Shown here: piece after piece, positions 5,600 through 47,560 of the stretch
How positions within the stretch are numbered: the stretch's first letter is position 1
Layout: each line of letters starts with the position of its first letter
Source of the DNA: Datnioides undecimradiatus
Lineage: Eukaryota; Chordata; Actinopteri; Lobotiformes; Datnioididae
Assembly (NCBI GenBank): GCA_008933995.1
Contig: WARS01000012.1
Span: forward strand, 7,511,001-7,575,000
DNA: 64,000 bases
Direction: 5' to 3'
Notes under the pieces: model-generated
What the model was told of the DNA's origin: nothing
Databases searched by the model: none
The model's input: only the letters and a program-made list of their open reading frames with translations
Position numbers and translations under genes: made by a program

Positions 5600-5774
5600 A
5601 GTCAGTCTGACCGCCCACAGTCCGGGGGGAGAAAGTGCTGCTTTGTGAATGAAGGGAGCGGCGGAGGGCAGAAAACAAAACTTCAGCAACGTTATTTCCG
5701 ACGGCTGACGATCAAACATCCGATCGAGAGCTTTCGACGGCACAGCAAGCGACACCTGGACCAAACCAAAAACA
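5600..5774 (+). promoter_or_regulatory. CpG-richer 5' region and non-coding exon 1 of the LTD membrane-protein gene
   Basis: About 5600-5770 is richer in G+C and CpG than its surroundings, as vertebrate promoters often are. It ends in a good splice donor (gtaagt at 5775). The next exon opens after a strong polypyrimidine tract and AG at 6518-6519, 25 bases ahead of the start codon. I infer a 5' UTR exon ending at 5774. The transcription start is not determined, so the left end is approximate. A 19-codon upstream open frame (5649-5708) would lie in the leader if transcription begins before it. Confidence 0.5.
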
Positions 5775-6544
5775 GTAAGTGACCAAGAATGTTTAAAGAC
5801 CTTGTGTGGCACTGATAGAAAGCACGGAAAGATGCATGCATAGCAGCCCAACCGTGACCGGAATAGCTGTCGTGAGATGGGAGATAATTTCAACTCCACA
5901 GACTCTTTCTCCATCTCCAGAAAAGCGTCTTTCTGTGTGTGTCCCGGCGTGCTTTTCCCAAAGAGACTGTCGTGCAAACTAACACAGCCTCTTTGAGACT
6001 TGATTTTTGTAGCTTGCGTTATAATCTGCGACCATTTGAAGTGATTGGGTAAAATGGGATCGCAAAATTACATCGTGTGTTCACGCTGATCCTGAAAACA
6101 AAATAAAAGAAGACCCGGCTGCCGTTTATTTAAGATGATCCGTCCATTCAGGCTACTTAATCCTGTTTATTCACCGTTTCATGCAAAGTTTCCATCTGCT
6201 TGCCAGTGTGTTTCGCAACATTTCATGAGTCATGCAGAAGACGTGCATTCCCAGTGTCACCATGAAGAGAAAAAAATAGACTCATAGAAGACTCATTCAT
6301 GATATTATGAGGTTTCCCCTCTAGGGAGTCTGGTCTGCAAGTGGTAAACATAAGATTTGATCACAGTGCTGTGAGCACACTTTCATACAGTGGCAGGTCC
6401 TTTTCTGTGGCTCAGATTTTGTTGTGTTCTCACATAAATAAAGAAGACTGCACCATTAAATCTAATTCAGTTTATTTTACTGACAAAAACATCTGGTGGT
6501 CTTTTTTTCTTTTTTGCAGGAGCATTTCAGAGAAGCTGTAAATC

Positions 6545-7367
6545 ATGGTGGTCAGTTTGGCCTGTGTGGCCTGTCTTTGCCTGGTGGCGGTGGTCAGTGG
6601 CGACCCCTGCCTCATCATCAGTGAGATCAACGCAGACAACCCGAGACTGGACACCACAGAGTTTGTGGAGCTGTATCACACCAGTGGGCAAAGGGCTTCG
6701 CTGGATGGCTACACTCTTGTGTTCTATAATGGGAATGGAAATATAGCCTACAAGGTGCTGGACCTCAAAGGCCAGAGCACAGATGACAGGGGGTTCTTCC
6801 TGGTTGGCTCGGTGGACATGCTGCCCAAACCCGCCATCCTCCTCCCTCCTAACACGGTGCAGAACGGCCCAGATGCCATCGTCCTCTACCACACATCTGC
6901 TGCTCGCTACAGTGAGAGGATGAACGTGTCAGCCCACGGGCTGGTGGACGCTGTGGTGTACATGACCCGCCGTACTGGGGGCGCAGAGTTCCTAGCTGAG
7001 ATGCTGACACCTGGGGAACCAGCCTTTGTTGAGGACGAAACGGCACTCGAGGGGGATGAGTCCATTGAAAGGTGCCTGCTGTCTGAAGATCGCTGGGGCT
7101 TTCAGGTGTCCTCTCCCTCCCCAGGCCAGAGGAATAACTGCACCCCACCTGCTGCACCAGCAACCATTCCTGTCATCACCGAGCTGAAGCTGGGTGGAGG
7201 GCAGGTGGACGGTTTTGTGGAGCTAACAGAAGCTCCAGCTGCAGGTCCTCTGGTGCTGGTTGTGCTGGATGGGAGAACGGACAGGGTCAGTGTGAGTGTG
7301 GATGTGGGCGTAACCACCTCCAGGAATGGTTTAATCTCCATTACCATAGAGAAGAACTACATGAAAG
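6545..7367 (+). CDS. Coding exon 1: signal peptide, LTD unit 1 and start of unit 2
   Basis: This 823-nt exon encodes residues 1-274 plus one base (phase 1 donor gtcagt at 7368). Residues 1-19 are hydrophobic with a small-residue cleavage site before DPC. LTD unit 1 covers about 22-199: IISEINADN at its start, EFVELYH at 39-45, RGFFLVGS at 82-89, and a closing motif ERC (C177) followed 22 residues later by C199. Unit 2 begins at about residue 209 with VITELKL and contains FVELTEA. The upstream acceptor AG is at 6518-6519. Confidence 0.88.
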
Positions 7368-10300
7368 GTCAGTGAGCCAAGCAACAGGTTTTTGTTTCAC
7401 CAGGCTCGACACACATGGGAGCTTCAGTGTCTTTTAGTCATTTTTCATTCATTCACTTTCATTTCATTGTAAATTCTTGGTTGCTGTTCTAATTTTTTTC
7501 TCAGGAGACGAGTCTGGGGCAGTGGCTATTTACAGTGGCAGAGCCTCAGACTTCCCCGTGGGCAGTCAGCTGAGCCAGATACAGCCTCTAGATGCATTTG
7601 TCTTTGCCGGACCCGGAAACAAGCCTAGTGCCAACCTCACAGAGACTCTCATCCCAGGCAGACAGCCCTACCAGCTCAGCAACAGGCAAGACATTTAGAA
7701 GACTTTAATAAAGTAACCCCCCCCCAAGTTTGACTACAGTTAGAAGAGTTGGAAAGAATCAGAACCAGTTTGGTGAAGCTGTGGATGTGTTTTTGGTGTG
7801 ATGTGTTAGAAATGTTCACTGGTTATTTTTGTAGCCACAGTTTCAGGGTTGTGCAACACGTTCCATTAAACACTTGGTAGGAGAGAAAGGATCAGCTTGT
7901 GACTGTTGTTCCTCTTTGCTGATACATTTTTTCCTGTGTGTGTTGTCTCTGTCGACACTCAAGCTGACGCAGAACACTTCAACAATTTGTATCACAACAT
8001 ACTAATGTGACTAACAAGTTAAAATAGTTTAAAGCCACACCACAGCAGCTCTGTGGCATTGCATTTAAAAGCAGCTGCTTTAAGCAAAATGCTAATGTGA
8101 CCAGGCTAATATGCTCACAATAGCAGTGCTAATATGCAGAAAACTTGCAAATATAATGTTTGGTCACAAGCTTTTTTAACATGTTAGCATGCTCACATTT
8201 TGCTAATAAACAGCACACACAAAGCTACACCTGAAGTTGAAATCTAATTATTACTGTGTTGGAGGAAAACACAGATGATCACCAAAGTTGTTGCAGTTCA
8301 TCCTGAGAGGGTTGTGAAAGAGTACTTCAAATTCTTTGGCTCTGTACGTTATAGCTGTGAACACATTTATGAAAAGCCGAAAATGTCGACCTGTCGGTGG
8401 CGCTAGAACTGCTGGAAGAGCTAAACTATTATAATAAAGCATTACAATCAGTTTCTTTGTATTTGATGGTAACACTGCTGGAAAGCATTATGGCATGATT
8501 TTGTTTGCTGATTGCAAAATATAGATATGGCATGCACTCACTAAACCAACTGTGATCATTGATAATGATTTCATTATGTTGTCAGTTTGAGAGAAGGAGG
8601 CTTCTATCTGAGTCGCTGTGGTGTTGCCACCTGGACCAGAGATCCTGGTGTATTCTGGGAGGCCCCGCAAACTCCTGGACAGCCCAACCAATGCCCCTGG
8701 CCAAAGATCTGCCCTCACAGTATCGGTGAGTGTTTGAATGACACGTCTCTTTATATTAGGGGCTCAGGATTATTACAATTTGTATGTGTTAGTCAGTTGT
8801 TTTTAGTCAGGCGCGTGTTTTGCTCAGGTTAGCTGTTGACAGCGTTGGTTCATTTCTGCAGTTTATAGATAGTAAAGAAGGACATGTGACTGACAGGTGG
8901 TTATAAGTCTCACTTGAGCAGCAGATTAGGCAATTGATTGGATGCTTAAACTCCTTTTATTTTATGAGCTAATAATCAATAAGAGGCACCTTATATGTGT
9001 GGGATTCTGACATTTCGTCTCAGTCTTTGATAATCCAGGTATATAATAATACTTAAACATGTCAGTTAAAAAACCTGTTAAATAAACCTGTTATTGCTTT
9101 AATTTTACACCAACTGCCCAGTTTGCCTCAACGCTAAAAACATTGATTTACATTACTTTACCAACGTGCCCTGTATTTAAAGAAAATAGTAATCTGCCAT
9201 GTAGTCCACAGATTGTGTTCTGAAACATGGATTAAATCAGTGTTTGTTTTGTTATAACTTACTTCTGCTATGCGTTACATTATGTTCTGTATGGCTGTTA
9301 AAAGATGTGATTTGAAACAGCATGCATGACATTTGAGAAAGAAAATATAATGTGAGCTCAGGACTTAATGATCATTAAGTCGTGACTGTGGTTTGATAAC
9401 ATGTGAGAGCGAGATAATGCATCTCTGGGAAAAATCAGCAGGAGTCACGCTCAGAGAGATACGTAATTCAGGTGCTCAGAATGAACATCTTTATACGCTG
9501 ATGGCATGCTGACTTCTGGAAAGATGCAGATTTTAGCTTATTAACCAGCTGAGGAACTGACACTGCAACATCACTGCATCAGCTATTGCAAATTAAGGAA
9601 CAGTTAGTTCCTCTGCCGGTTTAACAGAGAGATCAGTTTCTGCGTCTCCAAATATTAAGATGAGGAAAGCCTGTTTACCATGGACATAGACTGCTCTTTC
9701 ATCCAACTGATGATCATTAAATGATAAAATGTTGTAGGATGCAGCTAGATTTGTCAACATGTCAAAGTGAAAAACAAGGTTGTTAAGGTTCCAAATTGTA
9801 TTTTCCATTATCAAAATAAGATTTTAAAGATAAAGTAACATCCTCATGAAGGTCACATTATATGACTGAAAGCTCCAGAGCTGCTATTAAATGGACCTCA
9901 TGGTGAGATCTGGTCTTTAAATGAGCAAGTCAACAATACTAGCCGTTCAGTCACATGAGCAGGAGTTTGGGGAGGTGGAGGGAGCTGCAGCAGGAGGTGG
10001 TGCTGGCATCAAGAGAGTCATGGTGAGAACTGACAGTTCATAAAGGCCCCTTAGTGCAAATGTATGAACGTGATTGGATGCTGCCGGTCAGCCGGTGGCC
10101 CAAAACAGGTGATGTCTCAGTGAGCCATTAATTAAGAGCTTGCCTTTTTACACCTGAAGCTGGTCAGCTGATGTGAGCGCCACTTTGTTTCTAACACAAA
10201 GGTGCATTTCACACAATTATCCCAAGCACTGAGAGATAGTTGCTAACATTTGTGCTCTCACTTTAGGTGTTACCTCCAAGCAAAGTGGTTTTGTTCCTCT

Positions 10301-13300
10301 GGCTAAACTCCTTGATGTGGTCATGTGACTGCTTATTTCTTTACCTTGTGGACTTTATAACACCAACATGATTTTGTTTCTTACCGGTAGTATTAGTAGG
10401 TACAATGTTATCATGTCTGAGAAAACATGGGAATAGCGCCTAAAGGGAATTATTCTTAAAGTTGCAGCACCCTCGGGGACAGCACCATACAGAGCTTCCA
10501 CATAAACGTCAGTGAACAAATATACAGGTACATCCATTATTATATCTGTTTGATAAATAAAACAATAACATATATAAACCAGTCGAATAAATAAAATAAC
10601 TAAAAGTGGTAACAATTGACTAATTTTAGATCCCAGGTTTAATCATCCAGTCAGGAAGAGATATGCAGTTTGATGATTAAGAAGACAAACATCAGAGGTC
10701 ACTGGTCTGGTGTCAGAGTTTACAAGGTCCACTTTTCTGTTATAGTCATTACAAGGTTCTGACAAAAACCTGATGAAAACATGTTTTTCTGTGAGACTCA
10801 GCAGCACTACACTTATGTCATCATCTAACACTCATTTCAAGAGAAAGTAGGTGAGATCAAGGCAGAATGAAACACCCACTTCATCAGGGCAACAGGGAGC
10901 TGCAACCTACCTAATGGTCTCTGTGATGAACAGCGGATCTAAGAAGTCTCTGCACTTTATGAAATTGCAGGGTTTTTAATGAAAAGACAAAAATAACATC
11001 AATTTAAATTTCAGCCTTGTTCCATCTTTAATGTGATCTTGCATAAGAAACATCATCCCTGTACAGTAACAAGGTACAAGGCATCCACCTACTATCAATG
11101 AAAGTGATTTTATCCAAACAAGATTAAAGTCAGTTGTTGCTGTAGGATTTGGTTGAATGTTTGGGGCTGATGAGGCATGAAGTGCTGTCCAAACCATCAG
11201 CAATAAGTGGAGAAACTGTACCACCAGATCAGGACGACCCTCCAAAGTTGATGAGAAGGTGAAGAGAAAACTGACTAGGGACGCCACCAATACATTGTTA
11301 TTTCTGTCTTTACATTTCAAAACCCTCCAATCTTATGAGTGTGTGTAGACGTTTATTTGTTTGAATTTTCAACAAGAAATTGACCAGTATTGACCAGTAT
11401 TTGCTTTACAGCGCCTGATGGGGAAAACGTCCATCTGGTGCCTTTAACTAAATGAAATGAAGTGCAATTTAAAAAACAACAACAACTAAAGCTTTATTCT
11501 TTATTAAATAATAAAATAAAGTGTTTTACACTTCATAAAAAATATGTGTACCTCAGTGTTGTCATGTTGTTGTAATTATGAACAAATAAATATAAGCAAG
11601 CGCTGACGTTTGTCAGAAGTCAGTTGTATGAAACAGTGCCATTATGTGAATGTAATAAGCATATAATCAAATACTGCTGTATCTCTCCTCATGTGTCTCG
11701 CCGCGGTGCTCTGAAGTGCACTCATCACTTGTGGGAATTTCAAAAGTTGTTCACCAGGCTTTAGTGATTGCATGCAGTCCTCCATTATGTCAACAAATCC
11801 CTGTGGATTTGGCTCGGGGCCGGTTTTTCCGGTCTCAGCTCAACAACATGCCGCAGAAAATATCTCCAGACACTTGTCACATTTGATTCATAGAACATTC
11901 ACTAAATGTTGTCTCTCTGCTCCAACAGCCAAACTAAACAGGAAACGTATGATTCAGTAGACACGATAAAGAATACTAATTGGTGTTCAGCCACACATAT
12001 GTTTGTGCTTCAGTAAATGTAAAGCATTAATGGCTTTGATCATAATATTATGGCCCATTATTCCTGTAATAATTGTCAAACAGCAGTGCATGAATGCATA
12101 AAATTGTACACTACACAACTACAGAAATACAGATTATATTTATATGTGATTTGGAATAAGATTTCCTTATGTTTTTGCCGTTCAAATCTACTGACAGATA
12201 AAAATCACATGTCTCTCTCACTTTGACACTTAGTTCCACTGTATTCTCTAATGGATTATGGATATTGTGGATATTAAATACTGAGAAAAAGATCTTTTTT
12301 CTTTTCCCTTTTCCTTTAAGCAAAATGAGCTTGATGAATGAGCTGCTTTACATGTTCATTTAAACAATAAATACTGTTGAGGTCAAAGAAAAAGCTGGTC
12401 CTTGTGGGAAATATGCGTACTTGCCGTCGCACTCTTTGACACACAAAATTAAAAAGTACTTCACACAGGCAGGAGAATGTAAATGAGTATACAGACAACA
12501 GATAGTAAAAATAGACTGATTAAATCAATTATGACAGAAAAGACAGAACAACCAGAACCAGAACCAAACCAGAAGATCCAAAGCATGAGACCAGGACAGA
12601 GATTTCTATGAAGTGCTCGCCTATAGAGGTGAGTTGTTAGAAGCTGCTAAAATCAGTCCATAACAGGTCTGATGGATTGGGGACAATGATTCTAGACAGG
12701 TGAGGCTAAAACTGCAAAGGCACATTAATCTTTTGTTTGGTTGTTTAGGATAAAAGGGTTTGGGGATTAATGATGTCAAGAAGTGGAATGCCAAAGGAAA
12801 ATGAAGACTCAGAAATATAACTGTGAGCAAGGTCATGCAATACCTTTTTTTTATTCTGAATTTGGAAGGGTGGAAGTGGAAGGGTGCAAAACAAGGCTAA
12901 CTTGTGACCATTCCCTAGTTATTGCTAATATCCAGGCACTTCTATTGTGTCCCAGCTATCAACGATTTAGAACAGCTTGAGTGAGGCATACGTTGTGGGA
13001 ATAATAATGATCTATAACATGATGGTAATATGATGGTCCAATGTCATATCTGTGTGTTTAATACAGAGCTATAACCAGCAGCTACTTAGCTTAGCTTAGC
13101 ATGGGAAGCTGCCCTGGTAACAAAATCTGCCTACCAACACCTGTAGAGCTCTTATTTAACATTTTTTATGTTGTTTGTTTGTTTGTTTATTTGTTGTAAT
13201 ACCTTCCTTTTATACGTAAGTAATTCCAGGTGGAACAGACTCACCGCCTCATCTACCACCCTGGGGGAACAGTGACTTCCTGATCAATGAGCTGAACACT

Positions 13301-16300
13301 GATACACCTGGAGCAGCTGAGGACGGCGAGTACATTGAGCTTTGGCACCCATCAGGGCGCCGTGTCTCTCTGCAGGGCATCTGGATACTTCTGTTCAGTG
13401 CACACAACAACAAGCCCTACAGGGAGATCAGCCTGAGTGGACACTTCACCACATCCAAGGGCTACTTTCTGCTTGGCAGTGACAGGTTGGTGCCTGCACC
13501 ATCTCTCCGCCTGCCCCCCAATACCATCCAGAATGGACCAGATGCAGTGGCACTTTATCGCAGCCCTTTTGGACCACCATCAGCCACACAAAGGGGGATC
13601 CCCACCAAAGGGCTGCTGGATGCAGTCGTGTATCGGCAGCGAGGATCTGATAAAGAAGCACAGGAGCTGAGTAAGGCTCTGACACCGGGACAGCTGCCTC
13701 TGCTGGAGGATCCAGAGGTTCTGCCTGGTGACGAGGCCCTCAGCCGCTGTCGAGGCCTTTATCCCTACGACCTGTCTGCTTTTTCAGTGAGTACAAAGGG
13801 CGAAGTATTCACAGGACAATAATTGCTTTATTAACCCAATGCTTATTAAAACTGTAAGGATCATAGTAACAGTAATAGTTTTCTATTTTGGGAAATTTGC
13901 TCATTGGCTTTTTTTGCCAGGCTTAGATAAGAATATAAATGTCACTTTAATGTCTATAAACATGTCTAAACAATAAGCCTTACCCAGCAGGCAGTTGGCT
14001 CAGCTTAGCGCAAAGACCAGTGTAGACTTGCCTGGTTCTGTTCCACAGTAACAAAATCCACTTTTAATACACTAACACATTATTTTATTTGTTTGATCTG
14101 TACACAAACCAAGGTGTAAATATGACATCTTTTGAATATTTGCCAGGGGACTCATTCTTCTTAAAATGTTAAACTATTCATTTAAATATTTTTGCAAATT
14201 TTTGTTGTTTTTTGAGTGAAAAGAAAAAAGAAAAGAAACATATGAAATGTATCAACAGGTGGCTCCACCCACACCTCTAAGGGAGAATAGCTGCCCACGC
14301 CCCCCTCCAGCCCCTGAGGGTGTGGTCATCAGTGAGGTGGCTAGTGGCCACTGGACCAATCACAGCCAGCAGAGGGCCTTTGTGGAGCTGCACGGGCCCT
14401 CCATGACAGACCTGCAGGGCCTGGTGCTCACTGTGTTTGACCAGGAGCGCAGCGGGACCGTCATTGCCCTCCCTCTGACCGGATCCATTGACCAGGATGG
14501 ATTTTACATTGTGGGGAATGTCACTGGAGCAGGTGAGAGCAGTAGGGCACTAGTTGTTTAGAGATAATAGTTTCCTTCACAGTCTCTTCCTGTTCTTTTT
14601 CTTGTTTTGCACCTGCTCTCACACCTCTCACTGTACTCCTTCACCTCCTCTCTCTCCTGCATAGATCAGACTTTTCCGGAGGGCTCCACGGTGCCGGTAC
14701 GAGGAGCAGTCGTCCTATGCTATGACCTGTTCAGTGTTTGTAGAGCTGGCACCGCTCTGACCAACTCCAGTCTCAGGGATGTACTCGTGTTCAGTGAAAA
14801 CCAGCAGCTGCTCTCCTCACTCTCCACCAGCAGGGGGAGACAAGTGCTTCCAGCTCTCAGGTAAATACTCAATGAACCCACCAGCATGAATCACTGAGAA
14901 CCACAGGAATCTGGTGAGAAAGGATCATATTAGGGTGCCCTGGGGACTCTGACAAAGTTTGGGGTGCTCAGTTTAAGCATGCAACTGTAATTCAAACAAT
15001 ACAATTCACCTGACTATGTTTGAGAGCAAGAATGACATGGGAGTGCATGCATGAGTGAGCGGCCGAGTGCATTCATATACAGAAGAGCAGAGAAGAGTAA
15101 CCCCTCCGTCAATGCTTGAGCTTCGTCAGGATGATGAACGGGGCTTCCTTATCATTAAAGACCTTCAACTTGGCAGGAGACAGAGGGGAGCTCTGCGCTC
15201 CCTGTCTTTATGGTTCTGTCGTGATGAAAGCAAAAGCCATTCTGCACCTTGAGGTAACAAGGTGTAGCTCAGGACTCCCTTTAGCCGGGAGATGAGCCAG
15301 TGGCAGATGAGCCAGCGGCAGCCTGTACAGCCTTCCTGTCGGTGTAATGGAGTCATCAGGATATAATCCGTCTTGGATTGTTTTCAATGGCAAACTCAGC
15401 CTAAACTCACTCCATCTCCATAACCCCTGTCGCTGACAGCCTAGGGAGCCATGTAGGAAGTTGGCACTGGTTGAACCCCAGTTCAATAATCCTCCTGTTC
15501 AGCAACCTATTCCCAAATGTTCTGGAGCTTTTCTTTGTTTAGTTGAGTTATCCCATGCTGTATATGTGCAGGTCAGACTGGATGATACTGGTGCAATCTG
15601 AGAGCCACATGGACAGATATTTAAACAGCCTTTGAACTGTCTGTTTGGATTGCGGTTACAGCAACAACAGCGTGGCACTTACATCCTGCAGGATTTTAAT
15701 CAGAGAATCTTTTAAGTCAGCAATTGCTCGGGAGATACAGATCAGATGAGAGGTTACAGAGATATCTTAAGAAGCGACAAGGGCTCTGCATACCAGCGTT
15801 GTGTGTGTGTGCTTGTGTGTTAGCTGGGGGGGGATGTACAATTTTGGGGTGGTCTGATTCTGATAGAGAGCCCTATGATTTTCTTATAATCTTGGATTGG
15901 CAATGGAGAAGGCAATTTGGGCTTCAAGTCACGGGTTGTTATCCATTGATCCCAAAGTGAGTTTAAAGTTTTCAGTGATAGCAATGACACCATTAATCCT
16001 AAAAGTTTGCAATGCCAGTTTGGTTTTTTTTAGTTTTTTAATCATCACAACGTGCTGCATATGCTGCCAGGCTAACTAGGGGAGATTAAAGTAAGAAGAA
16101 AGGAGCCAAACAAATGAAACGGCCGTGTGACAATAATAAAATATATTCACAGTAAAGTTACAATACTAAGGAGCACCAAACTATGGATTATTATTTCTTT
16201 TGAAACAGATTAAAGAAAATATTAACCAGAGTTAGCATCATGCTGGGCTCTTGGGCCCTTGCACAGTACAGGAGAAAGCTTGTATGACTTCAGTTATTGG

Positions 16301-19300
16301 CAGTGCACCCCCATTAACATCTTAAGAATTCAGAGAAAATAGCTAAAAATGTGCCATTCATGCTGTTTTGTTGTTGTTGTTTTTTTTAATTTAATGAGTC
16401 AGGAGCTGTCAGCCGAAGAAAGGGATTGATCAGGCTTACTCGTTGCACGTGTGCTTCACGTTAATTAATCAAAGCAGCATGGAGCATGTTCCAGGGGGAG
16501 TGTTTTTTGTTTTGTTTTGCTTTTTTCAGGTGAAAAATGCTGGACGCAAACATTTCAATCAGTCACAATCAGCTCCACCATCCAATTTCCTGGGGGACAA
16601 CCCTGAATTTCTGACAGTGATTGGCTCACTGTAGCCTAACAACAGCAGCACTTATATTCCACTGCTGCAGCGCAGGAGGAATATGAGGCATCTTTGTCAG
16701 TACAGCCCTTTTATAGAGATAATAAAAGAAAAGACACATTGAGGCTCAAACATTTTAAAATTGTTGTCTGCACAAAACAGCTGAAGAAGCTTATTCAGAG
16801 ATCAGCTATACAGAAAACATTTGATTAATAATATAAAAACACAAATGGCTCATGGCCACTTTCATTTTAGCAGATTCTCAGGGGTAAATAGTTGCAGGCC
16901 GCTGCTCTAGGCGGTCTTTAACTTTACCGTCTTTACTGTATGTAGATTCATGTATTCATACATGCATGCTTGTGTGCATGTGCAGGTCAGTGGAGGATGG
17001 ACCTGTTTCACTCAGCCGATGTTCATGCTGTGAAGTGAGGAGCCCCTCCTCCTGGACAAGCTCCTCGCCCACACCTCACAGCACCAACCTCTGTCCGAGC
17101 TCTGCCTTCTCAAGTCACATTGACCTTTGCCTTGGACCCCTGTCCAGTGACTGGCAGGAGCAGCCAGGAGGTGAGACGTTGTAACTCAACGCAACTAAAA
17201 TGTATAAAAACTCATCAAAATATGGTCAAAACAAATGCATTCTTGATTTTGGCTGATTGATTTTGACCTAAATCAATCAGCCAGATTGACCTGATATTGG
17301 TGTGCTATTAAAAACAAGTGTTGCATTAGAAGAATACTTCCCAGGACTCAAGCCATGGATCTGACTTTGGAACAAGGAAATAAATGGAATACATTTGTCA
17401 CATAATGTATATCCATAATTACACACATTCTGCTCATATTATGAATATTGTGGATGTAAAAATTCAAGTAAACAAAATTTTTTTTTGTCAGAATTGTTTA
17501 GTCACAGCACAGTAAACATACCCTCACAGGAGCTGATGTCCTTATCTCTGTGTGTCCCAGACTGCAGCGGTTTAATCCAGGGGAAGCGAGTGGCTGAGGT
17601 GGCCGACTACCTGGAGCAGAAATGTCACTGTGGCATCTCTGCCTTGTATCTCCAAGGTGAGGCACCTTGCTCAGTAGAAATTGAAGCAGCCACAGTCGGC
17701 TGGTTCTAAATGTAAGAAATGACTGTCTAATCTGTTAGTTTTTTAAAAAAATGGCTGTTTGTTCAAAAGTTTTCAGTGAAAAAGAACGAGAAAGATTACA
17801 GACCGGTGACTTGACTGGCCCCAGGGAGAGAACTTGACCCCTAACAATCAACACAGCAGTGCGGGCTGCTGTTACCATGGAGTTGTAGTAAAGTAGGAAT
17901 AAAGAACTGCTAGTTAGGATGCAGGAACACACCACTACAGCTGAGTCCTGGTTTATTTTATTTATTTATTTATTTTTTTTAATAAAGCAGTTCTTCACGA
18001 TTGTAATAACAAGGTTAATTACAGGAGATGACCGGTGCTCAGGAGCACAGCTCTAGCAGCCCCCTCATCCACGTTGTGCTCCAAAGTTTATTCTTCCAGA
18101 AGGAAATCATTTACAGACAGACAGCCTCAGGTGCAGCTGTTTCCATGCCATTATCACACCCTGCATCCCTCATATACATTAAGTAATTGCCATGAATTCT
18201 TCTCTTTACATGTAAAAGATCATTTCCTCTTTATCTACCAAACTGCAGCACATCCTAAACTCTATCATATAGAGATAATGAAGCAGTTGTGTGTCTGCTG
18301 GTGCTTCAGGAGCCAACTTCTCTTGTGTGTCCGGGTGGCTGCGAGTATGGGGGAGCATCCAGGCGCTGTCGGACCATCAGAAGGCCCTCATCATTCAGAC
18401 ATCACACACGAACCCTTCATCTGCTCAGGGAGACTTCTGCTCTGCACCGACCACGGACCGGTATACGAGCACAGGTTAGCACCTTCATGGCTACACAACA
18501 CTAGCAGCAAAACAAGTTCACAGCTAGATCATCTTTACCTTACAATCAATGAATGAAGAGTCTGTAGTGAGGAACAGAGAATTTAAAGAATTTACTGAAT
18601 TTTTTTTTTTTTTTTTTTTTTTTTCATTTTTAAGCTTTTGAGAAGCTTCATCCGTCTTGGACCTTGGTGGTTGTTTTGAACACAAACCTGACATTAATCT
18701 AAGTCACATACCTGTTAATAATACTGATATCCCAAACTCATAGATATTCTTTTCTCTCAGTTGCAACACCTTTAGCCATCTACCAAATATGATGAATCAA
18801 ATGAATGAATCAAAAAGGGTCAAATATATAATTGTAGCACCGTCACCCCTTATAAAGGACCAAGAGATGGTGTTTGGGAACTAGAAAGCTCTTAAAGGGA
18901 TGTTGCAAAAGGAAACAAAAGGAAAGTGATTTCCATTAACAGAAATATTAATGGAATGGGAAAAGATTATCAAAAATAGCTTAAGGCATAACAACCAACA
19001 TATAAAATCTGCAGCCTCATAGCAAGCTGCCACCTCCTGTGTTGCTGTATTGACCACTGAATGGGTCATACCCCCTCACACCTGCTCACATAACACCTTC
19101 ACAGATAAGTATGGGGGCGTGCTAGCAAGATTCTAGAGATTGACAGCTGACCTAATGCCTCATAATTATCAAAACTGCTACGATTGACAATCACAATCCA
19201 CTAAACGTAGACACATCCACATTAAGTGCACCTAGTACCCCAAACTCATTTATTAGAGAACATTTACCTATCTCTCCGGATTGGACAGACAGCGAGTCAC

Positions 19301-22300
19301 TCACTGCAAAGAGGACATTATGATCCAAACCTGCTTCCACTCTCCCTGATTGATCCACCACCCACATACACATCCAGAGTAGGCTAACCCCTCTAACAGG
19401 ATATGAACTTGTATAAAAAAATCAACCACACACAGAATCAATGGAAACATTTATTGAAAATTATGATATCATACACAAAACAATGACAACGTTGCGAAAT
19501 GGGCCACAGTGCTACATTGGCCAATAGTCTGATTTCGCCTTTAATGTGCTTGCAGAACTAAATCTGTTGCTGGTGCTAAAGTGTCAGCAGGATGTTTGAG
19601 TTGCCATGTTGTGTTTAAACACTGATTTCTTGATAAATTTGACTTGAATTTTTATTTGACTCTCTCCTAGCAACTGCCCTGGGGTTACAGATAGGGCTGA
19701 TAGTAGCTGTGCTCCTGCTGCTGGGACTGGGAGCTGCTTTGTTCACGTATTTCTACAGGAGGAGGTGAGGAGACTTATTCTGTGCATTATCCTCCTTATC
19801 TCGCTCTTCTCTCTGCTGGATGTGCTTGCTGATGCCGTTTTGCTGGCAATTTTTACAAAGCCAGATTATTAACATTTGGTTAACCCCTCGACTCGAACTG
19901 CTTCTTTCGATTACACAGCGATTGAGTGTTATGAATGGGATATTTAAAAACAAATGTGCGCGTAATCGAGAGTGAATAATGCTCATTTGGCTCTATTGTC
20001 TAGAGCCTCGCACTTAAGACGTTTCTTTTTGTTTCTTGTTCACGTAGGTCATTGCCTTTATTCCTTTTTTTTTTTTTTTTTTTTAGAAAAGGCTTTGGTT
20101 ATATAAAGAGAAGTCACACACCTTTTTCTTTTGGGGTTGCACATGTCTAAATTCAGAGAGGAGGAACTGAAAAAGTAAGGGTGTTGAACTATTAGGAAAA
20201 GGGCCTGAAATATAAATGATGGATGACATCAGAGTTGTCACTGATGATACTTAAAGCTGTTATGAGGAGCCAAAATGACCTAGACATGTGTACTGTGCAC
20301 TGTGTACTGTGAATAAGTGCGAAAATCTGATATAAAGAAGCATCTCAGTATGAATACAGCATAAATAAATGGTACTGTTTATAAATGAATATACTGTGTA
20401 ATGAGAAATGTGCAATATAGAAGTGCCGGCTGTTTGTTCTCGTGTGTGGAACACAGTAAACAGCCAAAAGATCATTAGTCATAATAATCATAATAATAGA
20501 TTATTTAAATTGAAGCCCAGTCACAACAGACATGCTGTCCTTACCCATCTCCCTGTGGTTTGTGCACACCTTAAAGCCTGACGGTGTGATGAGAGGTGCA
20601 GTAGTCATGATGAACAAGTCGATCCACTCTAGAATGACTTTAATCATGCAGATGTACAGTTTTATTGATTGCTTAGCTTAGCATAAAGAGCTAAAATGAG
20701 GAATTGACTTACCTGGCTTTGTCCAAAGATCAACACCGACTTAAGTATTAATTACTGAGCTATAGAAGAGTTGCTAGGCACATTTTACATTTTGGAAAAC
20801 ACACATTTATACTTCTTTTCAGGAATTAGATGGAAGATGGATTTCACTGTCATTACTGTTGTTTAAGTAAATGGAGTTGCAGCAGATAGAGTTGCAGCCA
20901 ACGGCTACCTAAAGTCACTTAGCACAGAGACTGGAAACAGGGTGAAGCAGTCTGGTTCTATAAGTGTTGTGTAAGTGTTGTTTGTTGAACCTACTCAAAA
21001 ACAACAGATGTTTTGTACTGTATTGCATTGAGTAGTTGCCCAGCAACCAGCAGTGACTCTAGAAAGTTACAAGTCCCAAACACAAAACAGTCTTAAACAC
21101 AACCCTCTTGCTGTCCTTACCAATTTAACTGGAACTGTTATTTTAACAGAATCTACCAATGACCTTGCTATGAATATTTAAATAAAAAACATTTAAAATA
21201 TGTTTTCTTTATAAAATACTCTGGGATATACAGACTTGAAACAGTACAAAATAACCTGTAGGTACCTTACTTGTCATGTGGGATACTGCTCAGGATCAGT
21301 AGCTGTCTATTGTAGCTGTTAAGTTAAAATAAAAAAATAACCCCTGATGATGTCACCAAGATGCTGGCATTTATTTGACAAGGTGGGTCTAATGAAAGGT
21401 GCTCTGTTGCATCATGTTAAATGTAGAATGTAAATGTAAATGTTTGTTAGCGTTTTGAAAATGAAAAGTTTGGAAATGTCACATTGTACTGCTTTAGTTT
21501 TGATCATGATCCTGATCTTTGACAGTGCAATGCTAAATCACTGGAGCAACCTTTTAAAAGCTTTCAAAACTTAGACCCTTCAACAAAATTTCAGGTCCTT
21601 ACATTTCACTTTGCACATGCTTTTTTTGGCAGAGTTGCTTAATAATCCTGTTTGGCCACGCGGCATTCAGCTCTGTGGCATTGATACATGCATGAATAGA
21701 GACATTTGAAGTGACTGACGTATGGATGTTCACTGAATAAAAATGTATTTTTATGTGCATTTGCTCTTTCTGTATATATTCGACTTAGATTACTGGTACA
21801 CTTTCAGTCTTGTAGATTTGCACATTTTCCAAAGATGTGAACTGTCAGCAACGCAATATCAGCATTTGGTGTCATATTATAGCTCTGAATTAAAGAGCAA
21901 GACCTTAACTCTGGTCTTAAACACACTTATATTTATATCTGTAGCATTTATGTGCATGTATTAAACACTTCAGTATTGGTGTTAACAAAAAAGTGTTGAT
22001 TTGATTTTCTCACACTTTGGTGCTAGACAGAAGTTACCCACTATTCATTAGCATTTGTCCACACTGACAGCTGCCACGCCACCGTTTTTAATTTTCTATA
22101 TATGCTGGGAGTGTAAAATAAAAACTGTGGTTTCTACATTGAGTCTGTAAAGACAGAATATGATCAAAATGTATTTTTATGACGTGCATTTATTAATAAA
22201 GTTAAAACAACAACATCAAAAAATTGTTGGGCAGTGGGCCGTGCTGCGAGCGGGGCTGTGTGGGACTGTCTAGCTGTGACATCGCAACGTCACCAAATTG

Positions 22301-22909
22301 TTGACAGCTCATTTAAAGGTGCAGTTTCTGAATCTGGATTGAGTGTTTTGACACATTAGTGAACAGGACTTGTATCGCACCCATACCTGCTTTATAAGAA
22401 AATAAACAAGACATGGAGGTCTCTCTTTCTGCAGTCTGGGACCTTTAACATTTGATAATAACGTCCACTGTTTATAGGGGGAGGAAGTCCATGAAGATTT
22501 GCTGTAGAATGCTAATCCCCATCATTACCATCACCTGTTTCCGTAACTCAGACATAAATTCACAGAGGTTCACAACCACGCTCTGAAAGTTGTTTAAAGT
22601 CATTCAGGGAAATGCAGCAAATCACAGGTTGAAGCAGTTTTAATAGATTAGGCTGGTTGAGGGCAGAGTGCGGACAATCCACAGGTAAATTATAAAACGT
22701 TATCAATAAATTACTTCCATAACACTTGAACGTGAGTGAGTTAGCGAGCGAGCGAGTGGAAGCTGCCCTGTAATTGCAGTGTGTGTGTGTGCGTGTGTGT
22801 GCAGATTCTGAAGGCTCGATTCTGAACCCCTGTCTCTGTTCTCAGGCGCCCTCTGGACTATTATACCATGGAGCTGAGCGAACACGCAGAGGGACTGTCA
22901 GATCTATAA
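6545..22909 (+). CDS. Type I membrane protein with four lamin-tail-domain-like ectodomain units (924 aa, 11 coding exons)
   Basis: Coding exons: 6545-7367, 7505-7685, 8586-8725, 13230-13786, 14259-14532, 14665-14860, 16986-17170, 17561-17656, 18310-18474, 19671-19764, 22846-22909 (TAA). They total 2775 nt, a multiple of three, and every junction keeps phase. The start has a good context (aatcATGG) and opens a signal peptide (about residues 1-19). Residues 22-760 form four LTD-like units, recognised by the pattern I-x-E-[IVL] ... F-V-E-L/Y-I-E-L-[YWH] ... G-[FY]-[FY]-[LI]-V-G. A stalk (761-872), one transmembrane helix (about 878-900), an Arg-rich stop-transfer and a roughly 20-residue tail follow. 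N-glycosylation sequons (NVS, NCT, NLT, NHS, NVT, NSS, NFS) fit a secretory path. Function is unknown; a surface adhesion or receptor role is inference. I do not recognise an established gene name. Confidence 0.85.
7505..8725 (+). CDS. Coding exons 2-3: remainder of LTD unit 2, joined across a GC-AG intron
   Basis: Exons 7505-7685 and 8586-8725. Reading past 7685 hits a stop at 7696, and no GT donor fits the frame. A GC donor (cag|gcaaga at 7686) restores the frame into 8586 (acceptor gtcag), giving ...QLSNS-LREGGFYLSRC.... Unit 2 closes at C346 and C371 with the spacing seen in the other units. The exon 8586-8725 ends at a standard gtgagt donor. Confidence 0.8.
8030..8345. repeat. Dispersed repeat, family R1 ('gctaatatgctcaca' type), intron copy
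   Basis: The intron between 7685 and 8586 carries a diverged copy of a short dispersed sequence rich in 'atgctaa', 'gctcaca' and 'ttagcatgct' words, followed by a 'gatcaccaaagttgttgcag' stretch. Further copies lie near 30.65, 32.4-32.8 and 45.1 kb. From general knowledge this family is widespread in fish genomes; I cannot assign its transposon class. Confidence 0.6.
8726..13229 (+). other. Large intron of the LTD gene
   Basis: A 4.5-kb intron between a phase-1 donor (gtgagt, 8726) and acceptor (ttccag, 13229). I find no extra exon in it. It contains AT-rich DNA, a G-rich stretch near 9960-10010, and a repeat of family R2 at 13068-13145. Confidence 0.6.
13068..13145 (-). repeat. Dispersed repeat, family R2, copy 1
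   Basis: On the minus strand this reads as the '...tgctaagctaagctaa...cagctgctggtta' core shared with 38.2 and 63.8 kb. On the + strand it shows 'taaccagcagctacttagc' followed by 'ttagcttagcatgg' and 'ggtaacaaaatctgcctacca'. It lies just ahead of coding exon 4. Confidence 0.6.
13230..13786 (+). CDS. Coding exon 4: LTD unit 3
   Basis: This 557-nt exon encodes residues 382-567 and ends in phase 0 (donor gtgagt at 13787). It holds a complete LTD-like unit: DFLINELNTD, then EYIELWHPSG, GYFLLGSDR, and the shared LPPNTIQNGPDA block also seen almost unchanged in unit 1 (LPPNTVQNGPDA). The closing motif starts LSRC (C555) and is completed by the next exon. The close resemblance of units 1 and 3 points to duplication of a whole two-unit block or of single units within the gene. 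Confidence 0.87.
13975..14180 (-). repeat. Dispersed repeat, family R2, copy 2
   Basis: The intron 13787-14258 is largely made of a diverged R2 copy: 'gttggctcagcttagcgcaa', 'gacttgcctggttctgttcc' and 'aacaaaatccacttttaata' are in the order seen in the other minus-strand copies (13.07 and 20.7 kb). Confidence 0.55.
14259..17170 (+). CDS. Coding exons 5-7: LTD unit 4 and its closing motif
   Basis: Exons 14259-14532 (phase 0 in, phase 1 out), 14665-14860 (phase 2 out) and 16986-17170 (phase 1 out). The first supplies the second Cys of unit 3's motif (C579) and then VVISEVASG, AFVELHGPS and GFYIVGNVT of unit 4. The second holds the RGAVVLCYDL strand and a more divergent region. The third closes the unit with LSRC (C736) and C760. 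The intron 14861-16985 (2.1 kb) contains no further exon that I can support. Confidence 0.82.
14861..16985 (+). other. Intron of the LTD gene, possible conserved non-coding DNA
   Basis: No exon seen. Two stretches (about 15050-15250 and 16390-16640) are less AT-rich and free of low-complexity sequence, with AT-core words such as 'acgttaattaatcaa'. They look like possible conserved non-coding elements, but this is an impression of composition only. The 65- and 92-codon open frames inside lack domains and splice context. Confidence 0.3.
17561..19764 (+). CDS. Coding exons 8-10: extracellular stalk module and transmembrane helix
   Basis: Exons 17561-17656, 18310-18474 and 19671-19764. Residues about 786-872 form a module I cannot assign: GKRVAEVADYLEQKCHCG, then NFSCVSGWLRVWGS and QKALIIQTSH, rich in Cys and with one glycosylation sequon. 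The third exon encodes a clear single transmembrane helix (GLIVAVLLLLGLGAALF) followed by FYRRR, a stop-transfer signal fitting type I topology. Donors are gtgagg, gttagc and gtgagg; acceptors are cccag, ttcag and cctag. Confidence 0.8.
18599..18624. repeat. Poly(T) tract
   Basis: A run of about 25 T in the intron before the transmembrane exon. It could mark the reverse poly(A) end of an old retroposed insertion, but no element is recognisable next to it. Confidence 0.7.
20670..20830 (-). repeat. Dispersed repeat, family R2, copy 3
   Basis: Shows 'gcttagcttagcataaagag', 'cttacctggctttgtccaaa' and a closing 'ttttggaaaacacacattta', in the same order as the other minus-strand R2 copies. Confidence 0.6.
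22225..22450. repeat. Dispersed repeat, family R3
   Basis: Contains 'cgtcaccaaattgttgacag', 'aaaggtgcagtttctgaatc' and a closing 'tgggacctttaa', which I recognise from general knowledge as a dispersed sequence common in fish non-coding DNA. Only one copy is seen in this window. Its class is unknown to me. Confidence 0.5.
22846..22909 (+). CDS. Last coding exon: cytoplasmic tail of the LTD protein
   Basis: After acceptor ctcag (22841-22845) the phase-2 join gives RR-PLDYYTMELSEHAEGLSDL and TAA at 22907-22909. YYTM fits a Y-x-x-hydrophobic sorting signal, and the acidic end is ordinary for a short tail. A longer open frame through the same exon (to TGA at 22986) would need a phase-0 join, which the upstream donor does not provide, so I did not choose it. 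Confidence 0.7.
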
Positions 22910-31600: not shown

Positions 31601-34600
31601 CCAAATGACCCCAATGCACTGCATGCTCCCATTGCCTGTAATCCTGACATCAATGCGTGGATAATTAAACACAGATTAAAGCTAAATGAGGAAAAACATT
31701 ACATTCAAAGCAGCAGAAACCAAACTACACTGGATGCTTACTGGACTATAAAACAGAATAAAAATAGTATCATAAACCTGGGAGTGATTTTCAAGTGAGT
31801 TTTAAATTTGAATTTTCATTATAATGTTATTGAAGCCTTATAGCTAAAGGAATATCACCAAAGTAAGAGGTTGTTTTTTTTAAAACTCAGAGCTAGTGCT
31901 GCTGGTAGCTATATTTACTTTTTATCAGATTACCTTGAAAGTCTGTAAAAAAAAAAAAAAAAGAAGTTTAGATAGCAGACAGAGTCCTGCCTGAAACAAG
32001 GGAAATGTTCAAATTACCGCACTACTGAAAACATTATATGGCTACCTGAATTTTTTGCCAATGTCTTTTACTTGTGCGTTAATCTTCTAAAGTTTTAACT
32101 TAATTTACTATGTTCTTTCCTTCAGCAGAGATCTTCAGCTATCACTAACGTCCTCCACTGGTTTTCTTCTTAATATTTAATATGTAACTCATAAAAGTGT
32201 GAGTGAAGCTGTTATTCCCCCAAACTGTGGAACTTAAAAGTCTCTCTGTATTTTCAAAGAGAAATTTAAGACCCATGTTTTATAATGTAGCTTTCAGTTT
32301 GGAGTAATGATATAGCCTTAGATTTTTTCTAAGGTTGTTAAAGGTTGCAATGTTTTTAGTCTTGAAAATTAAAAATAAATTAAAGTGGGAGTGGAGTTGA
32401 GCTTTATGGTGGCACTACAATAAAAGTCAGAGGATCAACAAAGTCAGTCTGATTCTTCATAGACCATGAATAACTCTTATCACATTTTGTGCTGATACAT
32501 AGAGTAGTGGAAAGATTTGCACAGATAATGTCCGTGTGTTCTGTATGCTCTTCTTGAGGCTTTTCCTTGTGTTTCTTAGGGAGTTTTGCTTTATCCAAAT
32601 GAAAGGTCAAAGGGCAGATTGTGTCATAGGCTGTGTAGAAACGAATTTGCCAATCATAATTTGTAAAAACTATTTTAAGATATTTGTATATTGTGTTGTA
32701 CCTATTTTATATTTACATTGCTTTGGATAAAAGCATCAGCAAAATGACATTGTAGAATTGTAGAATTTCAGTCTGGACAAAGTTGCGGTCTCACCGACCA
32801 ATCACACAGACAGACATTATCATCACAGGGAGGAATAGGATTTCTGTGTGTGTGTGTGCGTGTGTGGTTGTGGCACTGTTAGTGTCACAGGGCATTTTAT
32901 GGAAGGAAAACAGAAATAAAAAAACAAGAACAGACTGTTATTCATAACTACAGGTATTGTGAAACATAAAGAAAAAGTACAAATTAGAAAAACAGACAAT
33001 ATATGTATATGAACTTAATTTCATATTTATTGTACTATGGACAACCCTGCCCCCATGAACTGTGTCCTTAGTAGAGTCTGAATGAATGAATGGATTGATG
33101 AATGAGACAACTGACTTTGAATAAATATGGTTCTGTGAAACAACAGGAGGTAATATGAAGCCTCAGGCTATAACATGTTCTATTGCAAAAATTATTTTTG
33201 TCTGGTACACATAATACGAGTGACTGGTGTCTATACTATACATTCTGTTCATTAAAAAAGATTGTTCTAGTTGATGAAATTGTCACTTTATAGTCTCATT
33301 AATGACCTATATTTCTTCCTTTCTTTTCCTTTTAATGTTGATTTAGATCTTGGCTGGATCCAAAAGCATCAAGACCAGATGCTCCGCTTCATTACAGCCC
33401 CCTTCCTGGAGGAGATATTATCTTACCTGAGAAAGGTGGATGTGCTGAGCTCAGCTGAGGAGACCAAGATCAAGGAAGTGGGACGGCTGCAGGACCAAAT
33501 TACCATGCTCACAAGTATTGTCAGTGGCAAAGACACTCAAGGGTCAGATGTCCTGCGGGGCTTCATAGAGAGTTCAGATTCTCAAGTGGCCCAGTTCATC
33601 AGAAACCATGGTAAGGAGCTTGAAATAGGGTTTGATATCTGTGTCGCTCAAGAGAAAGGAAAGTAAGGAAAAAACTAATAGTAGCTCAGGTGGTCCAGCA
33701 GATCAGTAATAGCCGATATAGTTGTTTGATTCCTGAAATCTCTTAAAAGCATGTCAAAGTGCCATTGACCCAAGAGCCCCAAATTGCCCCTCATGGGTTT
33801 TTCAGTTGAGATGTAATGCACTGGAAAGCACTTTGCACCACTCAGGATAAAAAGCACCACATAAACGCAATCAATTTCCTGTTTCGACTTTTTGATAATA
33901 AAAATTTACTTTCACTAACAGTAATCTGAGCCAATTTCTTTTTCTGCAGATTCCATGGTGAAGGAGCACAAAGAGGTGCTGTTACGTCAGTATGAGCAGT
34001 ACAGAGACAGAGATTCAGTCAGCTGCCCCAAACTGAACATCTCCTCAAGAACTTTACTTCTGGTTGATGGACTTTCAGACCTCCAACAAAAGGAACATGA
34101 CTTAATGCAGGTGGGGGTAACTCGAGGGAGGAAGAGAAATCATCTCAGACAGCTTGTGCTGCCTAAACTCTTGGAGCCCCTGACTCGGGTCAGTTTACCT
34201 CCCAGGGTCTCCCTCACAGTTGGCGTGGCTGGTATTGGCAAGACAACCTGGGTCCGACACTTCATTAGACAGTGGAGCCAAGGGGCCATCTGTACAGATG
34301 TAAGCTTTGTCTTGCCCTTTACTTTTTGCGAGCTGAACTCATTGGAGAAGCTTTCTGCTGAAAAGCTTGTGAAAATGGCTTATCCTCATTTAACTGACCC
34401 CAGTCTGGTCCTGAGCAGCCAGTGTCGCACACTGCTTATCCTTGACGGGTTGGATGAATTCCGCTGCACCTTAAATTTCTCAGATGCAGCTCCTTGCAAT
34501 GACCCAAAGAAAGAAGTGTCCATTGATGACCTAGTTACAAACATCATCCAGGGAAATCTGCTTCCTGACGTAGCAGTATGGGTGACTTCCAGGCCAGGAG

Positions 34601-37600
34601 TGGCCTCACTCATCCCTGGAGGACTGGTTGACAGGGTGACTGAGATCCCAGGATTCAGCCCAAATGATATCCAGATCTTCCTAAACCACCACTTCACTGA
34701 GAAGAATTTTGGCAGTAAAATATGGGCCCACTTGGAGTCCCATAAGATACTAATGGTAATGTGCTACATACCATGTATTTGCTGGATAGTGGCTGATACT
34801 TTGGTGTACATCATGCAGAGTGGAACACAAGAGAGCCTTCCAAGGACCTGCACTGAGCTGTACGCTTACTATTGTTCCATGAAGGCAGAAGCAGGTGAAC
34901 CGAGAGGCAGGGAACCGGTAAAAATGGAGCAGCTACATGGCAGCAATCGTAAACTGCTTGGGAATCTTGGACGACTGGCATTTTATGGGCTCCTCAAACA
35001 CAAGTACACCTTCAGTGAGCAGGATCTCAGGGCCTATGGAATTGATCAGTTGTTAACTCAGTCCAGTCTTGGTGCTGGAGTTCTTGTTCGCAAGGAGTCA
35101 GCCATATACACAACATACCAGTTCACTCATTTGACTCTTCAGGAGTTTCTTGCAGCTACTTTCTACCATGTCTCCTCCAAGAGGGCAATCTTTGACTTGT
35201 TCTCAGAGAGCACCATGTCTTGGCCAAAGATTGGTTTCCAGAACCACTTTAGAAGCGCCTTTCAACACTCACAACAAGCTGAAGATGGTCACTTGGATGT
35301 GTTTGTACGCTTCCTGACAGGTCTGCTGTCCTCAGTAGCACTGAAACCTCTCGCTGGGCTTTTGGCGCTTGGGAAAGATGATGGCAATCAGAAGGCATGG
35401 GCAGCAGGATTTTTACAAGGTCTCTTGGTCAGCGGGGGTAGTGTAGTGTCCCTGCGTTCAGTCAACCTGGCTTATTGTTTACAGGAACTGCAACACACAG
35501 AGCTGTTGCGGAGTGTAGAGGAAGATTTGCAGTTTGGAAGCCTGGCAGGGAAGTTAACACGGGCCCACTGTGTTGTGCTGGGCTACCTACTGCATGTGTC
35601 TCCAGAGTGCAGTGAACAGACCAACCTAACAGGATCTCTGAACAACACAACAGTGAAATGTTTGCTCCCACAGCTACTGTACTGCAGTCATCTCAGGTCA
35701 GCTACCCAGAGCAAAGTCTCCCACTACACTGAAACTCTGGAGAAAGCCTGAAAGGTGCAACTTGTAACTTATCTGCTCCACAGGTTAGAGAACAATCACT
35801 TCAAAGATGATGTCATGGAATTGCTGGGAAGCCTCTTGAGTGCCAAAGACTGCCATATCCAGAAGATGAGGTAGGATCACACCTACCTTTCATCTTTTTA
35901 TTGAAACAAAATATATGAGGAACATTTAACAGTCTTATTCTGTAGTTCTGAACCATTATATCCAATAAACTTGCCTGATTGCTGACACAAAATGGCAAAA
36001 CATTTTAATTACCAGTTAGTGTCAGTCTTGTTGATTACAGGGGTGTAAGAGACACTTAGTGATTATCGTGTGGTTGTAGGATTGGTGCAGTAATGATGAT
36101 GAATGTGATTAGGGCTCATATTTTGAACCATCTGATTGTAACCTCTTTTATTCACACCTTTAGTTTGGCAGAGAATGCTATCAGCAACAAAGGCGCCAAA
36201 GCCCTGAGTCGAGCCCTCTTGGTGAACCGGACGCTAACTTCTCTCAAGTGAGATCTGTTTGTCGCCAGTGACTGATTGCAAGTGATTTGAGTGAAATGAC
36301 ATAATTTTTTGAATTCATAAGATATTTTCTACATATTACATATTTTCTATTGCTTTTATTTGGAATGAGATGAGAAATATGCAATGGTTTTGACACATTA
36401 CAACAAATTCTATGCTGGCATTGGTTGATCACAATCTCTGTGAATTATATTACCATATGTTTGCATGTATGATGTTTGATACACATTTGTTAAACATTCA
36501 GCTGGTGAATGGGTTGAAGCTTCTTTGGAAAATATGAATAGTTTTCATTCTGTTTAGATTTATTCAGAGTGTGCTTATCTCCAACTCCCTGGATTGCTGA
36601 AATTCTAACAATCTGTCTTTTTCACAGTGTTGTTTCTCCTGTGATTCTACAACGCTGTATATCATCTAACCAATCATTTATAATTTAGTCTCAGAAACAA
36701 CAATATTGGCTCCAAAGGTGCAAAGTTTCTGGCTGAAGCTCTGAAAATGAATCAAGTCCTGGTATCAATCAAGTGCGTATAACTGCCATAGATTTTGGTT
36801 TATATCCAGAATGATCTTGCACAATGCCAGTGTAAGTTTTGAGTTGGTATAATTGCACTATTTCTCTAACCACTCATCAGCCTCCAGAACAATGCCATTG
36901 AGGAGGAAGGTGCTCAGGCTCTTGCAGAAGTCCTGCAGTGCAACCGCAAACTGGTGTCCCTGAAGTGAGCTTTGTCTGCCATCTACGTGTGTTTGTTGCA
37001 TGTCTTATGCATAGTATATGCTTGTGATGCCTGTGATGTGGCCAAATATGTGATTTTCATATATGTACTGACTCAGTATACAGAAGAACACAATTGGAGC
37101 AGGAGGAGCGAAAAGGATCGCAGGCGCACTGAAGACAAACCGGACTCTCACAAAATTGATGTAATCTTAAATAAATTTGTATTAATTTGATCAGCTTTGA
37201 TCATATGATACTGCATGTTTTTACATATCAATGAGCTTGCACAATTATGAAAACATAAAACATTGCATCCAGTAGACTACAAGCTGTTCTTCTTTTTCTG
37301 TATTCTCTAGTCTCTCTCTTGTTTGCAAATTTATCAAGGATCTATGAACAGAGTAGCTCACTAATTATTTACACAGGCCTCATGTTAAACTAACTATCCT
37401 TACTTACCAATGGGCCTTTCATTAGGTCACATGCTGATCATCAAGATTTATAATTTTACTGTTTCTTAATGGGTTCATTTATTTTTTGTTCTTGTCTGCA
37501 GTCTTTGTAGCAACCAGCTTGGGGACAAAGGAACAGTTGCTCTGGCAGAGGCTTTGACGGTCAACCACACTCTGCTGTCACTTCAGTCAGTACCCTCTGC

Positions 37601-46822: not shown

Positions 46823-47560
46823 ACAATAAGAATAAGAATAAGAATAAGAAAACCTTTATTTGTCCCACAATGGGGAAATTGCATTGTTGCAGCAGCAAGT
46901 GAGAACAGTAAGCAGGTAAGAGCAGTACAGTAAGGTAAGAGCGGTAAGTAAAGTAATAAGCGACATATTGTAATAGAAAATTTAAAAAAAAAAGAATAAA
47001 AAGTAATAAAAAATAATAATAAATAAAGATATTGCACAATGGAATGGAATGAGATTGCACATGTCAGGAGTGGTTATTGTAGAGTCTGACAGCAGCAGGA
47101 AGGAAAGATCTTTGGAATCTTTCCTTCACACATCGGGGATGGAGTAGTCTGTCACTGAAGCTGCTCCCCAGAGCTGACAGGGCGTCCTGCAGGGAGTGGG
47201 ACTCATTGTCCAGCAGAGATGACAGTTTTGCTAGGACCCTCCTGTCACCCACCTCCTGCACTGAGTCCAGAGGGCAGCCCAGGACAGAGCTGGACTTCCT
47301 GATGACTTTGTCCAACTTCCTCCTCTTTCTTTCAGTGATGCTGCTGCTCCAGCAGACCACACCATACAGGATGGCAGATGCCACCACTGAGTCATAGAAG
47401 GTCTTCAGGAGTGCCCCTTTCACTCCAAAAGACGGCAGTCTCCTCAGAAGGAAGAGCCTGCTCTGACCCTTCCTGTACAGTGCGTCTGTGTTCACCGGTG
47501 AGGGGAGGGCAGACCGTCGCCTGCGAAAGTCCACCACCATCTCCTTGGTTTTCAATGACC
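46823..47560 (-). mobile_element. 5'-truncated LINE with reverse-transcriptase C-terminus (L2/Rex type)
   Basis: On the minus strand, a frame that is nearly intact (ORF to 47064) reads KTKEMVVDFRRRR, then QSRLFLLRRLPSFGV, KTFYDSVVASAILYGVVCW, RKLDKVIRKSSSVLG, RRVLAKLSSLLDNESH and SFLPAAVRLYN. This is the C-terminal region of a fish LINE ORF2. It is followed by a 3' UTR ending 'gggacaaataaaggttttc' and a (TTCTTA)n-like tail (46825-46852, + strand AATAAG repeats). Homology stops near 47555. It is too short to be active, but little decayed, so a fairly recent insertion. Confidence 0.85.

Follow-up and report, generated by a model that had tools for sequence, protein, structure and literature searches.

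The window, a stretch of 64,000 nucleotides from the fish Datnioides undecimradiatus, carries a gene for a predicted protein of 924 residues with four units that belong, by their sequence, with the long lamin tail domains (LTDs) of bacteria. The new point is that, compared at the sequence level, the four units are not lamin-type LTDs. They look like a duplicated A-B pair and, as the initial annotation of the window had proposed, they sit in what looks from hydropathy and sequons like a membrane-anchored ectodomain.

Gene model

The coding sequence consists of 924 codons and a stop codon from 11 joined coding exons between 6545 and 22909 (+), with no internal stops (Table 1). All ten introns end in AG, nine start with GT and one with GC, and the phases match. 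The GC-AG intron is the second coding intron (donor CAG/GCAAGA, at 7686-7687), and the homology of unit 2 runs across this join. An in-frame TAA is present two codons upstream of the ATG, the GC content is 0.569 in the exons vs 0.385 in the introns, and the single AATAAA within 4 kb after the stop lies at 25496. The uninterrupted 924-codon model of the initial annotation was thus borne out by open frames, splice sites and phases that fit over the 11 coding exons, and the gene model is sound. A twelfth, 5' non-coding exon that ends at about 5774 and is joined to 6520 is possible from a reading of the splice sites.

Table 1. Exons of the LTD gene in the window; the coding sequence joins 6545-7367 with the ten exons listed after it.
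Feature	Position	Strand	Remarks
Putative 5' non-coding exon	5620..5774	+	5620 arbitrary, start not fixed; donor ACA/GTAAGT after 5774; splice-site reading of the sequence only
First coding exon	6520..7367	+	ATG at 6545; putative signal peptide, all of unit 1 (LTD-A, residues ~20-200) and the beginning of unit 2; acceptor upstream of 6520 from a splice-site reading
Middle of unit 2 (LTD-B)	7505..7685	+	Profile match; GC-AG intron after
End of unit 2 (SRC...TPGQPNQC)	8586..8725	+	Gene model and bacteria-only profile
Nearly whole unit 3 (LTD-A)	13230..13786	+	Pfam, bacteria-only profile; 39% identity to unit 1
Last part of unit 3, beginning of unit 4 (LTD-B)	14259..14532	+	Gene model and bacteria-only profile
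Middle of unit 4	14665..14860	+	Profile; taken alone E 3.6, not significant
End of unit 4	16986..17170	+	Gene model and bacteria-only profile
Membrane-proximal, cysteine-containing	17561..17656	+	No Pfam family above cut-off
Remaining membrane-proximal region (residues ~818-873)	18310..18474	+	No Pfam family above cut-off
Transmembrane-like helix (~877-901)	19671..19764	+	Hydropathy
Last exon, short putative cytoplasmic tail and stop	22846..22909	+	Gene model

A search of the fish's own genome (581 Mb, 497 contigs) with the whole protein listed 11 matches, all of which were exons of this gene. No paralogue or second copy was found among the matches listed at E ≤10, in which the best candidates were scored, and the gene is apparently single-copy.

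Several other features were seen in and around the window. Open stretches at 33271-35751 (+) matched CARD (E 2e-9) followed by NACHT, the NOD2 winged-helix and NLRC4 HD2, and are probably one innate immune receptor gene of the NOD/NLRC type on the same strand as the LTD gene. The fourth beta-propeller of WDR90 (92.8 bits, cut-off 50) and WD40 were matched some 14-29 kb beyond the right-hand end of the window (L096:4401-4766 and L097:8227-8547), and WDR90 is likely a neighbour gene that is useful for synteny. About 31 kb to the left (L091:8533-9441), one large open stretch showed a protein kinase domain (E 1.8e-32), which may be SBK-like from its look. On visual inspection, an open frame at 47067-47660 (-) resembled the terminal part of a LINE reverse transcriptase; Pfam gave only an ALKBH8_N match below cut-off.

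Predicted protein

The hydropathy profile (Kyte-Doolittle mean above 1.6 over 19 residues) showed two hydrophobic stretches, one at the N-terminus (within residues 1-28) and one at 870-902 that is followed by RRRR. This agrees with the signal peptide, single transmembrane helix and stop-transfer described earlier, and from it we infer a type I membrane topology. Six N-X-S/T sequons without a following proline are present (127, 318, 601, 654, 692 and 820). A looser rule adds N198-C-T-P, which the no-proline filter drops, and gives exactly seven, so that the initial count of 'seven or more' stands at its limit under that rule and falls one short under the strict one. The protein has 23 cysteines, and its ectodomain is acidic (net -30, pI 4.96). 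The Pfam scan found no nuclease domain in the protein and no family above cut-off in the membrane-proximal residues ~787-870. The short predicted tail contains YYTM, which fits the YxxPhi sorting signal, and ends in GLSDL.

LTD units and predicted fold

The whole protein scored 47.9 bits against Pfam LTD (PF00932), above the gathering cut-off of 34.3. Scanned singly, unit 1 (31.4 bits) and unit 3 (17.5 bits) both fell below this cut-off, and neither unit 2 nor unit 4 matched LTD at E values up to 10. Pfam saw two of the four LTD units that the initial annotation had described and missed the other two, whereas all four were recovered with a profile of 20 bacterial sequences that contained no fish rows. 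With E values stated for 20,000 sequences, units 1-4 matched this bacteria-only profile at E 9e-46, 9e-6, 5e-30 and 4e-9 (155.9, 25.5, 104.6 and 36.4 bits), unit 2 at profile positions 37-185 only. Among the 2,236 six-frame open stretches of at least 20 amino acids in the window, four were significant (E 3.7e-49, 2.6e-30, 9.2e-7 and 1.5e-5), and all four were exons of the LTD gene. As controls, the protein was shuffled 1,000 times, with E 3.5 as the best score, and reversed, with E 1.5. Compared within a five-sequence set without composition correction, unit 1 matched unit 3 at E 2.6e-44, and units 2 and 4 matched units 1 and 3 and each other at E of about 1e-4 to 1e-7. A search of NCBIfam with the first exon and with unit 3 produced nothing of weight.

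The predicted structure of unit 1, the one unit modelled, has the Ig-like fold of LTDs, as the initial annotation had anticipated. DSSP placed several conserved residues of the model in loops, namely in the D12 loop and at QNGxD before strand 92-97. The top-scoring solved fold was that of the DUF4876 protein BT_1938 (PDB 4q1z) at 15% identity, and no convincing solved relative was found by sequence.

Relationship to bacterial LTDs and to nuclear lamins

To collect relatives, we aligned units 1 and 3 with two LTDs from bacteria and used this alignment to scan 84,980 prokaryote genomes. The best 80 of at least 234 confirmed relatives were kept and gave 79 loci, which are a sample. In the 31 best of these loci the best-segment identity was 32-43%, and the match reached at least residue 178 of 183 in 21 of the 31. 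Unit 1 and one bacterial LTD (L003), aligned over 180 columns, were up to 40% identical. The best plasmid match of unit 1 was an alphaproteobacterial ExeM/NucH endonuclease (L001; E 2e-8, 40.6% over 93 residues); five other records scored lower, beginning with L002 at E 4e-3. Unit 3 alone gave nothing significant against plasmids (best E 2). A phage or viral source was considered and rejected, with no phage match at E ≤1 and a single weak match to a viral contig (residues 6-97, 31%).

A family profile that included fish rows matched none of the 16 lamin sequences of the PDB library at E ≤10, and a lamin query recovered all 16. In hhalign, the same profile aligned with one lamin A LTD at a probability of 0.3%, and the bacteria-only profile did not list the lamin A LTD up to E 10. 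The Pfam scan of the fish protein found no filament family (intermediate-filament rod) up to E 10, and the C-terminus does not have a CaaX box, although lamins without CaaX exist (PMC10125929). A lamin-derived ectodomain is thus rejected at the sequence level by profile and hhalign, while the fold is still common to both. Of the 'lamin-tail-like' label the fold has stood for unit 1, and a nuclear-lamin subtype by sequence has not.

Units as a probable duplicated A-B pair

The first tree grouped unit 1 with unit 3 (support 99/98) and unit 2 with unit 4 (95/93). Of the 62 bacterial long units, this tree included 49, no more than two from any locus, along with 12 short ones; 19 of 65 rows were dropped for the second tree. 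A branch supported at 98/100 put the fish units, which are themselves on long branches, together with the main long bacterial LTDs, and a few bacterial units that passed the length rule (L002, L034, L049 and L062) grouped with the short ones across this branch. A single clade of the four fish units was not supported in the tree and not rejected (p-AU 0.368).

Units 2 and 4 each contain one phase-1 and one phase-2 intron, while unit 1 has none internally and unit 3 has one near its end. The phase-2 introns of units 2 and 4 were one column apart in 6 of 6 alignments. The phase-1 introns were 10-17 columns apart, so that this pair coincides only if a gap is moved. Out of 52 positions near-invariant in bacteria, units 1 and 3 keep 38 and 37 and units 2 and 4 keep 23 and 22, a difference that is favoured in itself by the way in which the bacterial set was collected, starting from units 1 and 3. 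At the 131 other positions the four units are alike (27, 27, 23 and 26). QNG-D is intact in the A units and lost in the B units, and conserved acidic residues are present in the A units.

Bacterial partner domains

A Pfam scan of the bacterial ORFs covered 20 of the 31 best of the 79 loci, and the 20 are not independent samples. A nuclease-type domain (Exo_endo_phos or Exo_endo_phos_3) was present in 13, above cut-off in 12 and just below it in L022; one had a 5'-nucleotidase and six had neither enzyme. The pairing of LTDs with nucleases is already known (PMC4486849, PMC6085458, PMC8289736, PMC5118699). For ExeM, the LTD is reported to be required for full activity in vitro, and the protein without it to clear nearly as the wild-type in vivo (PMC6085458). 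The bacterial long units had a median net charge of -24 per unit. They are more acidic still than the fish protein, so that the acidic fish ectodomain weighs little against binding to DNA by simple electrostatics, and charge, as calculated here, neither proves nor excludes that DNA is bound.

Two or three full long LTD units were found in ORFs of L015, which extends to the end of its locus, and L024 (adjacent units in both) and L028 (spaced units). Several units per protein are therefore not special to the animal protein.

Proposed function and alternatives

With somewhat less than even confidence, we propose a type I membrane receptor or adhesion glycoprotein whose A units capture an extracellular ligand, with B units as spacers and an internalising tail. 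The ectodomain would consist of long bacterial-type LTDs arranged as an A-B pair that is present twice. Units 1 and 3, with their conserved loop residues, would hold the ligand, and units 2 and 4, in which many such residues are lost, would act as spacers. The short tail could let the cell internalise bound material through YYTM as a possible YxxPhi signal. By analogy with the bacterial partners alone, the candidate ligand may be an extracellular nucleic acid or some other polymer. The computed parts of the proposal are the gene model, the fold of unit 1, the homology between bacterial LTDs and each of the four units, and the A-B-A-B grouping; the homology covers exons 1-7, with none for exons 8-11.

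A rather doubtful but possible alternative is an adhesion or structural protein in which the LTDs would associate through their edges, in cis or in trans, without ligand capture or internalisation. The LTD fold predicted for unit 1 and four units on a stalk would suit such a role, and LTDs of lamins form edge-strand dimers in crystals (PMC12051499); the position of conserved residues in loops of the model (D12 loop, QNGxD) instead favours a loop-borne site. An innate-defence receptor for nucleic acid or a bacterial polymer that keeps the partner role of bacterial LTDs is unlikely: the frequent nuclease-type domain and the single 5'-nucleotidase in the relatives, and the dependence of full in vitro ExeM activity on its LTD, speak for it, but the net charge of -30, the in vivo clearing by LTD-deleted ExeM, the lack of a nuclease domain in the fish protein and the six relatives without either enzyme speak against it. 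A wider version is less probable again, namely that a bacterial LTD with a surface or nuclease-partner role was adopted by vertebrates for an extracellular receptor, through an ancient transfer or a non-lamin inheritance, and that its duplicated A-B pair would bind extracellular DNA or microbial polymers. If true, it would place in innate recognition a receptor class outside the usual Ig, lectin or scavenger domains.

Capture of a metal or haem complex, in the manner of DUF4876 proteins encoded beside TonB-dependent receptors, is very unlikely. The best-scoring solved fold and the conserved acidic residues of the A units point that way, and tables of iron-dependent genes from B. thetaiotaomicron and P. 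gingivalis list DUF4876 genes together with those for TonB-dependent receptors (PMC10434189), but the identity is 15%, Pfam DUF4876 is unmatched and the ligand is putative only. It is most improbable of all that exons were wrongly joined or that the gene is no longer active. One GC-AG intron and a model known here from sequence alone would allow it, but the fit of frames, splice sites and phases over 11 exons, the GC contrast between exons and introns and the homology kept in all four units argue against it. Should the fish protein work as a receptor, the LTD, whose role is unsettled in bacteria, would gain a vertebrate context in which to test ligand and function.

Comparison with known LTD proteins

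Our literature search, which covered few subscription journals, recognised no vertebrate multi-LTD membrane protein, and public databases may well contain unnamed orthologues. A zebrafish gene considered as a candidate orthologue was set aside; its gene-table line gives no tie to LTDs. The initial annotation described secreted LTDs as mainly bacterial, which is broadly correct, but non-lamin LTD-like proteins of several eukaryotes are mentioned in print (PMC5630835). LTD is named among the domains of ctenophore TIR-type proteins (PMC11797021), which could be another non-lamin animal LTD. Other mentions in animals concern an intermediate-filament-like flatworm protein, a tsetse lamin, octopus mucus lists and a pearl-oyster transcript annotated LMNTD1, while the SMP-LTD domain in a shark is unrelated.

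Two histories under the name 'lamin tail' are set apart, one nuclear and one extracellular, the latter tied by sequence to bacterial proteins. Nuclear lamin LTDs have no profile-level sequence link to the fish units, which add a C-terminal part of about 55 residues. DUF4876 BT_1938 is similar in fold, with 15% identity and no Pfam DUF4876 match up to E 10. A patescibacterial transmembrane protein (PMC12419801) has external LTDs anchored in the membrane as in the fish; it is bacterial and is likened here by description only. ExeM/NucH-type proteins and their relatives (L001, L002) have short LTDs with EFIE, LYNG and QNGAPDG motifs in common with the fish; these LTDs are shorter than the fish units and lie, with the unit of L002 included, across the branch supported at 98/100. 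The bacterial long LTDs (Aquimarina, Fulvivirga, Alteromonas, Caldilineae, Pyrinomonadaceae and others; L003-L033) have a unit of about 180 residues as in the fish, and share with it INExDAD..EFIEL, QNGxDA and the SPG/TPGxxN end; the cysteine pair RC...N..C of unit 1 is also present in 4 of the 62 bacterial long units. Unlike these bacterial proteins, the fish protein is without a nuclease and a bacterial sorting tail, and has introns, sequons and a transmembrane-like anchor.
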